In this document: positions 20,199-22,126 of the stretch, piece by piece | Layout of the letters: each line of letters opens with the position of its first letter | Numbering within the stretch: the stretch's first letter is position 1 | Assembly: GCA_009995225.1 (NCBI GenBank) | Contig: JAACPW010000001.1 | Span: 62,001-126,000 of the forward strand | Direction of reading: 5' to 3' | DNA: 64,000 bases | From: Sphingomonadales bacterium | GTDB taxonomy: Bacteria; Pseudomonadota; Alphaproteobacteria; Sphingomonadales; Sphingomonadaceae | Made by a program: the position numbers and the translations under genes | The notes under the pieces: model-generated | Databases searched by the model: none | Seen by the model: only the letters and a program-made list of their open reading frames with translations | What the model was told of the DNA's origin: nothing

Positions 20199-20205
20199 TG
20201 TGCCG

Positions 20206-20628
20206 TCATGCCCGATGATAGGGATGCCCGGCAAGGATGGTCGTGGCGCGGTAGAGCTGTTCGATCAGCATCGCACGGGCCAGCATATGCGGCCAGGTCG
20301 CCGGACCGAAAGCGAGCAGCAGGTCCGCGCCGGCCCGCTCGGCGTCGGAATGGCCATCCGCCGCGCCCAGCATGAAGCGTGTTTCGCGCACGCCTTCATC
20401 CCGCCAGCGCCCCAAGAGATGCGCGAAATCCTCCGACGTCATGGCCTTGCCCCGCTCGTCCAGCAGCACGGTGCGGACAGGTGTGAGCGCATCGGCCAAC
20501 TTGCCCGCGCCAGTATCGGGCCATTCGGTCAGCTTGAAAGGCCAGGTCATGCGCTTGGCATAGCGATCCACCAGCTCGCCCTCAGGCGACCGGCCGATTT
20601 TCCCGCGCGCGATGATGTGGAGGAGGAT
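20206..20628 (-). CDS. rlmH: 23S rRNA pseudouridine-1915 N3-methyltransferase RlmH, apparent ATC start
   Basis: 140-residue SPOUT methyltransferase acting on the 70S ribosome. Family pattern: N-terminal HIIARGKIGRSPEGELVDRY; SAM-binding knot FMLGAADGHSDAERAGADLLLAFGPATWPH; C-terminal ARAMLIEQLYRATTILAGHPYHR. The usual N-terminus is M-x-LHI(I/V)ARGKIGRSP, so the initiator should be at 20626-20628, but that codon is ATC (Ile). No in-frame ATG, GTG or TTG lies near it; the track extends far upstream through repeat sequence. AAAAGGA, a good ribosome site, lies 8 bases before the ATC, supporting initiation here. The upstream DNA is a structured element whose last hairpin directly abuts the ATC. 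Confidence 0.85.
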   Translation of the reverse strand: MLLHIIARGKIGRSPEGELVDRYAKRMTWPFKLTEWPDTGAGKLADALTPVRTVLLDERGKAMTSEDFAHLLGRWRDEGVRETRFMLGAADGHSDAERAGADLLLAFGPATWPHMLARAMLIEQLYRATTILAGHPYHRA

Positions 20629-20730
20629 AAAAGCGTCCTTTTCTCTCGCGGCACAAGGCTTCGCCTTGGCCTGCCGAGGGGGCGGCCTACCGGCCGGCGG
20701 GCGGTCGCCCTTGCGGCTCCCGAGAGCCGA
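20629..20730 (-). repeat. Structured intergenic element, copy C2 (abuts rlmH)
   Basis: On the minus strand: hairpin CGGCTC tcgg GAGCCG, linker CGCAAG, hairpin GGGC gacc GCCC, hairpin CAAGGC gaa GCCTTG, then GCGAGAG and a final hairpin AAAAG gacg CTTTT. The order of parts matches copies A, B and C1. The final hairpin ends at 20629, immediately before the presumed ATC initiator of rlmH, and its 5' arm contains the rlmH ribosome site (AAAAGGA). Folding would mask the site. Confidence 0.6.
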
Positions 20731-20740
20731 TAATCGTGTT

Positions 20741-20845
20741 CCTCGGCCCGGAAAGCGGGCCGCAAGGCCACGCGGCCGCCCCGCAGGCGCTCGAGCCCGC
20801 AGGGCTCGAAACAGCGCCGAGGACGAAGGCGCGGAGGCGCCTTCG
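20741..20845 (+). repeat. Structured intergenic element, copy C1
   Basis: Outer stem CCTCGGC/GCCGAGG, hairpins GGCCCG gaaag CGGGCC, GGCC acgc GGCC, TCGAGCC cgcag GGCTCGA, and a final CGAAGGCGC ggag GCGCCTTCG. Linkers CCGCAAG, CCGCAGG and CCGAGGAC equal those of copy B, though the stems have different sequences. It lies back to back with C2 in the 226-base gap between rsfS and rlmH, and ends 10 bases from the rsfS stop. Confidence 0.75.
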
Positions 20846-20854
20846 AAAAACGGA

Positions 20855-21289
20855 CTACGCTCTACCCTGCTGCGGTTCGCCGCCCTCGAACGACCACATC
20901 CGCTCAAGGTTGTAGAAGGTGCGCACTTCGGGGCGGAACAGGTGAATCACCACGTCGCCCGCATCGATCAGCACCCAGTCAGCCGCCGGAAGGCCTTCGA
21001 TCCGGGCGTGCCCGAAACCGGCCTTCTTGATCTCCTCGGCCAGCTTCTGCGCCATCGACGCAACCTGACGGGTCGAACGGCCGCTGGCGATCACCATGTG
21101 ATCGGCAATCGAGCTTTTTCCCGCGAGCGGGATCGACACGATTTCCTGCGCCTGATCATCGTCAAGCTGAGCGAGCACAAGCTGGTGCAGGGCATCGGCG
21201 CCCATTTCAGGCTTGCCCTGCGATGGGGCGGCGGTGGCAGCAGCTTGCACTGCGCCAAGCGGAAGGGAAGCGACAAAGGCCTCGGACAT
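20855..21289 (-). CDS. rsfS: Ribosomal silencing factor RsfS (Iojap)
   Basis: 144-residue Iojap/DUF143 protein that binds L14 of the large subunit and blocks subunit joining in starvation. Core seen: LVLAQLDDDQAQEIVSIPLAGKSSIADHMVIASGRSTRQVASMAQ and ADWVLIDAGDVVIHLFRPEVRTFYNLERMW. An alanine-rich N-terminal extension of about 30 residues precedes it. I chose the ATG at 21289 (MSEAFVAS), preceded by GGAGA; the track start 15 codons upstream is a weaker choice. It follows nadD by 87 bases, the widespread nadD-rsfS-rlmH order. Confidence 0.94.
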   Translation of the reverse strand: MSEAFVASLPLGAVQAAATAAPSQGKPEMGADALHQLVLAQLDDDQAQEIVSIPLAGKSSIADHMVIASGRSTRQVASMAQKLAEEIKKAGFGHARIEGLPAADWVLIDAGDVVIHLFRPEVRTFYNLERMWSFEGGEPQQGRA

Positions 21290-21376
21290 GGGCAATCGAA
21301 TATCTCCAGAGTTTGAGGTCAATGCAGGCCACATGACGCAAGCGGGCAGGCAACCGGGCCGAAACGCTGGCGCGCT

Positions 21377-22126
21377 TCATGCCTCGGCCTCTTGCCGGAG
21401 CTTGCGGAATGTCAGCCGGTCACGCACCCCTGCCCTTCGATCCTGACGGTCCGCGCCTTGACCATGCCCGTCATGGGCAAGCAAAGCATCGGCCCACCCG
21501 GCATGGGCACGGCGAATGGCCGTGGCCGAGCGGTCGTCCGGATCGAAACGCATTAACACCAGGGCCGGTGCGCTCCATTGCCCCCGTTTCCGAATGCTGG
21601 CGGCAGACACACGATAGCGTCTGAGCCAGGCCATGGCGGGGCTCGTCATAGCGCCTGTATCATAGCCGGGACGGGCGATCACCGCAATCGGCATTGTCCG
21701 CGCCAATCTCCGCCAGTCTTTCCAGCGGTGCAATTGAGCGAGATTATCCGATCCCATCAGCCAGATAAACCGCCGCTTGGGATAGCGCCGGACCAACCGC
21801 GCAAGCGTATCGACCGTGTAGCGGGTGCCCAATTGCTGCTCGATGATGGTGGGCACGATCCGCGCCCGCCGGGCCTGCTGGCGCGCCGAAAGCAGCCGCG
21901 CGGCCAGCGGCGCCATGCCTTCGCGCCGTTTCAGCGGATTGCCGGGCGATACCAGCCACCATGTCTCGTCCAGCCCCAGTGCCTCGCCGGCGAACAGCGT
22001 GATCTTCCGGTGCCCGCCATGCGCAGGGTTGAAGCTGCCGCCGAGCAGCCCGGTCAGTTGGGGTGGCGCAGGCAATGGCTTGGGTGGGCTTACGGGCGTG
22101 TCTGGCCCGCGCCGCGAACCTGCCAC
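21377..22126 (-). CDS. nadD: Nicotinate-nucleotide adenylyltransferase NadD
   Basis: 249-residue enzyme joining NaMN and ATP to form deamido-NAD. The nucleotidyltransferase motif GGSFNPAHGGHRKI (G-S-F-(N/D)-P-x-H-x-G-H) is at about residues 29-42, and the second motif is near the C-terminus (DRSATAIRRAH, the S-S/A-T-x-I-R signature). The last about 35 residues (DGHGQGADRQDRRAGVRD...) form a charged extension I do not recognise. The start is a GTG at 22124-22126 inside the 3' end of proA (37-base overlap); a later TTG is possible. Confidence 0.92.
   Translation of the reverse strand: MAGSRRGPDTPVSPPKPLPAPPQLTGLLGGSFNPAHGGHRKITLFAGEALGLDETWWLVSPGNPLKRREGMAPLAARLLSARQQARRARIVPTIIEQQLGTRYTVDTLARLVRRYPKRRFIWLMGSDNLAQLHRWKDWRRLARTMPIAVIARPGYDTGAMTSPAMAWLRRYRVSAASIRKRGQWSAPALVLMRFDPDDRSATAIRRAHAGWADALLAHDGHGQGADRQDRRAGVRDRLTFRKLRQEAEA

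Follow-up and report, generated by a model that had tools for sequence, protein, structure and literature searches.

To our knowledge, very few bacterial genes other than infC begin at AUU, AUC or AUA. The classic case, infC, is autoregulated through a start codon of this class and encodes IF3, the very factor that reads the codon. In Streptomyces, sigR starts at GTC and is repressed by IF3, as shown by mutation and western blots; its noncanonical start is conserved, lies outside infC, is mis-called by gene finders, and has been proposed to serve for limiting the product relative to the operon (PMC5472188). Work in other bacteria shows that IF3 makes initiation complexes unstable when they form at codons other than AUG, GUG and UUG (PMC5472188). 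In Listeria, the noncanonical starts described are the ATC of rnhC, the ATT of infC and those of ATA/ATT mutants of rsbW; rnhC is a housekeeping gene whose ATC start is fixed, and both ATA and ATT were shown to reduce translation (PMC13068326).

The gene considered here, rlmH, is encoded on the minus strand of the analysed contig, which belongs to a genome assigned to the GTDB genus Erythrobacter (which includes Porphyrobacter), family Sphingomonadaceae; the window, that is the whole stretch of DNA that was analysed, comprises 64,000 nucleotides. Its coding sequence (20206..20628, minus strand), identified from the translation and from NCBIfam and PDB matches, consists of 140 codons plus a stop and begins at ATC (20626..20628, minus strand). 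All nine of the nine NCBIfam matches are to RlmH equivalog models, with a best E-value of 8e-42 and all scores below the curated cut-offs (143 vs 169 bits and lower); the PDB matches of the product are YbeA/RlmH. The C-terminus, GHPYHRA followed by the stop, contains the conserved (H)PYHR tail, and the conserved N-terminus LLHIIARGKIGRSP comes directly after the ATC at 20628-20626, as the earlier note on this DNA had claimed. Model NF000988 covers residues 3-139 and aligns residue 3 to its position 3, as expected if the protein begins at the ATC. The gene upstream is rsfS (20855..21334, minus strand), which has a canonical start; a spacer of about 226 nt separates it from rlmH, and rsfS was found immediately 5' of rlmH in 130 of 130 loci examined.

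The absence of nearby ATG, GTG and TTG codons in frame, which had also been stated, was borne out. Upstream of the ATC the rlmH frame stays open for 106 codons, up to a stop at 20949, and the sole canonical codon in this interval is a TTG at 20907, located 93 codons upstream and inside rsfS; downstream, canonical codons first appear at codon 20 (GTG) and codon 27 (ATG), where initiation would delete the conserved N-terminal segment of RlmH. The AAAAGGA motif (20636..20642, minus strand) was likewise correctly described as well spaced, since it ends 7 nt before the ATC and provides an AAGGA match to the Shine-Dalgarno consensus.

Codon 1 was read by alignment in 108 Erythrobacter genomes (Porphyrobacter included), where it is ATC in 38, ATT in 28, ATG in 25, TTG in 10, GTG in 5 and ATA in 2, with no other codon present. 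Codons of the ATH type (H = A, C or T) therefore make up 68 of 108, about two thirds, ATG makes up 23%, and GTG or TTG is found in 15. One further N-terminus, in genome G435 (locus L124), reads GFSI-T-LLHII, encoded around ATC ACG CTT, and could represent an ATC displaced upstream by one codon, or an ACG start. Codon usage at this position is start-like: the Leu-type codons are all TTG (10/10) and the Val-type codons all GTG (5/5), whereas at codons 2, 3 and 5, taken for comparison, TTG represents 5 of 214 Leu codons and GTG 7 of 51 Val codons, most being CTC/CTT and GTC. Similarly, ATT accounts for 28 of the 68 ATH codons at position 1, against 66 of 336 Ile codons in the interior of these genes (Fisher p = 0.0003). 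No in-frame ATG, GTG or TTG lies between the upstream stop and the ATH in 33 of the 68 genes; this stop is within 5 codons of the ATH in 13 of the 68, and in some at a distance of 0 to 3 codons. Among the cultured species in which a stop closely precedes the ATC or ATT are Erythrobacter fulvus sf7 and E. colymbi (TGA GCC ATC). The neighbouring genes rsfS, envC and nadD, which served as controls for missing canonical starts, lack one in 0/107, 0/24 and 1/24 loci, respectively. In nadD of locus L128 (genome G011) no in-frame canonical start precedes the conserved domain, which may reflect a second noncanonical start or a matter of annotation. The codon set, the excess of ATT and the 33 ATH genes devoid of an upstream canonical codon thus identify codon 1 as the start codon. 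As judged from these comparisons, rlmH begins at ATC in the source genome, and the odd start is a true, recurring trait and not the result of sequence damage.

The context of the codon was also compared. Before ATH starts a purine peak extends from -12 to -9, with G in 40, 42, 53 and 47 of the 68 genes; this is the expected place of a Shine-Dalgarno sequence that serves the ATH codon. A longer Shine-Dalgarno as compensation for ATH was considered and rejected, the match length showing no clear difference (3.87 vs 3.70; independent pairs, median p 0.45). The number of G residues at -12 to -9 tends to be higher in ATH genes (2.68 vs 1.93), and their ribosome site tends to be more open (p = 0.003; independent pairs, median p = 0.07); extra G and a more open site may partly offset the weak ATH codon. 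Immediately before the start, at -1, a T is present in 13 of 15 GTG/TTG genes, 29 of 68 ATH genes and 5 of 25 ATG genes among the loci of the genus. A U at -1 would be compatible with codon-anticodon pairing to the initiator tRNA that reaches one base further. The first three codons of rlmH in the source genome (AUC CUC CUC C, within 20611-20642) contain UCCUCCUCC, which is able to pair with the Shine-Dalgarno of the gene itself.

In a tree built on rlmH (codon 1 excluded) and rsfS, at least 21 changes between ATH and NTG are required within the genus, compared with a mean of 32.7 and a minimum of 24 for shuffled labels; when outgroups are included the changes are 22, and the single codon states at position 1 change 43 times within the genus. 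Fewer changes than in the shuffles mean that the ATH state is inherited, yet it flips often: genomes G036 and G037, a sister pair, carry ATT and ATG, respectively. The comparison of sister strains, suggested in the earlier note, thus gave a divided answer, with ATG in 25 species of the genus but ATC in the nearest ones (loci L004-L007, RlmH 96-98% identical). When the family was scanned for an ATH codon directly before the RlmH N-terminus pattern, 18 of 401 genomes, from 9 of 96 genera, matched, and the reversed pattern gave none; eight genera of the family besides Erythrobacter also have ATH starts of rlmH. Eleven ATH matches outside the genus were examined in their sequence context, which includes TAG-ATC in G448; in Aurantiacibacter sp. 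D1-12, the start of rlmH reads TAG-ATT. In the rest of the Alphaproteobacteria, canonical rlmH (ybeA) belongs to the same gene family and weak GTG and TTG starts are common; however, among 40 additional loci read at the class level none lacks ATG, GTG or TTG near the N-terminus. From the genomes compared, the ATH start is a speciality of this lineage, placed on top of a broader tendency of rlmH toward weak starts.

The closest parallel is found in the same cells. The start of infC is ATA in 31 of 31 Erythrobacter loci (L220-L250), including that of the source genome (contig C26, 125100-126300), and it is preceded by AGGAGA. This finding implies that these cells very probably do initiate at AUH, in the classic gene autoregulated through IF3. 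The earlier proposal of a rare-codon start with a rationale like that of infC accordingly receives strong comparative support from the ATH codons of rlmH (68/108) and the invariant ATA of infC (31/31). The two genes share the codon class, the spacing of the Shine-Dalgarno and a role in the translation machinery; they differ in that infC encodes the factor that reads its codon, whereas rlmH does not, so that any control would act in trans, and in that ATA was present in all 31 infC genes checked, whereas rlmH uses ATC, ATT, ATG, TTG or GTG. Three features typical of infC and sigR are recognisable in rlmH: a noncanonical start in relatives (68 of 108, the other 40 having ATG, GTG or TTG), a spaced AAGGA and no usable canonical start. 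Differently from sigR, which has a GTC/GTT start with a long Shine-Dalgarno (PMC5472188), rlmH combines AUH with a short one, and the sigR case was proven by mutation and westerns, whereas that of rlmH is proposed from sequence comparison. The Listeria example concerns another gene, and its ATC is fixed, whereas the codon of Erythrobacter rlmH switches repeatedly between species.

From the position of the start, its recurrence, its Shine-Dalgarno and the parallel with infC, all of which are read in the DNA, we infer initiation at AUC, a low level of the product and control by IF3. In the reading that we prefer, to which we assign a probability of about 0.6, translation of rlmH would start at AUC with fMet, guided by the AAGGA located 7 nt upstream. 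Across Erythrobacter the start would be kept inefficient, being AUC or AUU, rarely AUA and sometimes UUG or GUG, with AUG in 23% of the species; the inefficient start would hold RlmH low, and a decrease in IF3 activity would raise the output of rlmH in step with that of infC, whose start codon in these species is AUA. Of these steps, that the odd start keeps RlmH scarce is probable. Dependence of rlmH expression on IF3 is plausible, since IF3 rejects AUU, AUC and AUA and the output should rise as IF3 falls. The substrate of RlmH is the assembled 70S ribosome, in which it methylates pseudouridine 1915 of helix 69 (PMC5430550), and the footprint of IF3 on the 30S subunit overlaps the region occupied by the helix 69 loop (PMC1190176); a link between the level of IF3 and this modification would make sense because the loop occupies the IF3 region of the 30S. 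In an extended form of the scheme, which we regard as doubtful, a shortage of IF3 would ease 70S formation and improve the reading of AUH, RlmH would increase, and helix 69 would be methylated at the very place that competes with IF3. A strict switch is opposed by the data on codon 1, with ATG in 25/108 and GTG/TTG in 15/108 genomes and sister pairs that differ, while infC is invariant; the 25 species with ATG count against an indispensable IF3 switch, which should be conserved.

The chief rival is drift. The AUH start would be real but not regulatory, since a low requirement for RlmH would let start strength wander among AUG, GUG, UUG and AUH, and no useful control by IF3 would exist. The frequent flips of codon class (at least 21 between ATH and NTG, 43 among codon states) and the 23% of ATG fit this explanation, as do the GTG and TTG starts common in the wider class; moreover, deletion of rlmH in E. 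coli is described as causing a slight growth defect only, in the account of Purta et al. (2008) given in PMC10117853. On the other side, ATH is the majority state of the 108 species and carries phylogenetic signal (21 changes vs 32.7 in shuffles, minimum 24), and drift alone would not favour such rare codons in rlmH while rsfS and envC are always canonical. We consider drift possible but, on balance, unlikely.

Other explanations deny that the ATC is a working start, and all are far less probable. It is very unlikely that the true start is canonical and upstream, at the TTG at 20907, so that RlmH would be extended at the N-terminus and the ATC would be an internal Ile codon. The open frame of 106 codons with its one TTG would allow such a protein in the source genome, and this TTG is what a gene finder limited to ATG, GTG and TTG would choose; the extension would, however, lie partly within rsfS and be encoded in part by a dispersed repeat, and its peptide is unconserved even in the nearest relatives. 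The 33 ATH genes without an upstream canonical codon, in part because a stop lies only 0 to 3 codons ahead of the ATH, the start-like codon choice at position 1 and the NF000988 alignment of residue 3 to position 3 speak against it as well, and the TTG 20907 start was rejected because it is not shared among relatives and no conserved peptide follows it. The earlier note had also considered that insertion of an element damaged the start, or that a base was misread, and a rlmH spoiled in this way or by point mutation, with RlmH absent or truncated, would account for a non-standard ATC adjoining a repeat. This repeat is a dispersed intergenic sequence of the rsfS-rlmH spacer (20645..20717, minus strand) with partial matches elsewhere in the source genome: the GC-rich spacer sequence (20645-20856) has about 20 partial copies at E below 0.1 (contigs C26, C21, C34, C33, C28 and others), and the best of these copies aligns with 20645-20715 and does not reach the Shine-Dalgarno. 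Of the 108 relatives, 36 carry it ahead of rlmH, and it is not associated with ATH, which is found in 27 of 36 genes with the repeat and 41 of 72 without it (p = 0.09); the nearest species have ATC too, RlmH is intact and conserved throughout, and ATH in independent genomes refutes a misreading, so that damage is hardly credible.

Equally improbable is a conserved hairpin that masks the ribosome site and regulates rlmH. The letters of the inverted repeat AAAAG-GACG-CTTTT (20629..20642, minus strand) are present and able to pair, as had been noted, but the pairing is weak: alone it folds at -0.9 kcal/mol, and the 56 nt around the start fold no better than shuffles (z 0.12). Perfect hairpins of at least 5 bp near the start were found in 4 of 108 relatives vs 2.3 expected from shuffles, and the sites of ATH genes are if anything more open. 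A known structured RNA regulator, such as a riboswitch or leader, was looked for with Rfam over 20200-21400, with no match at E <= 1. Nor does the ribosome site lie inside the repeat element, as the earlier note had it: the element ends near 20645, directly before the Shine-Dalgarno. A hairpin that is weak and unconserved and a repeat that is unassociated with ATH indicate that no conserved hairpin masks the start and that the element has not broken it.

A literature search retrieved no report of an AUH start of rlmH and nothing relevant that pairs rlmH with start codons; searches concerning Erythrobacter, or noncanonical starts within the Alphaproteobacteria, yielded nothing about rlmH. By the comparative evidence, rlmH joins the few genes with conserved AUH starts as a new member, and it stands out for the repeated switching of its codon. 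Gene finders restricted to ATG, GTG and TTG misplace or miss genes that start at AUU, AUC or AUA. The at least 21 switches of codon class in one genus provide natural pairs of strains for measuring the purpose of a weak start, and, since RlmH modifies helix 69, which touches the place where IF3 sits on the 30S subunit, it becomes possible to test directly whether the fidelity of initiation is linked to rRNA modification. If the doubtful extended scheme is true, and if the methylation alters start-codon selection or subunit joining, the Erythrobacter lineage would possess a second feedback loop on initiation fidelity beside that of infC.
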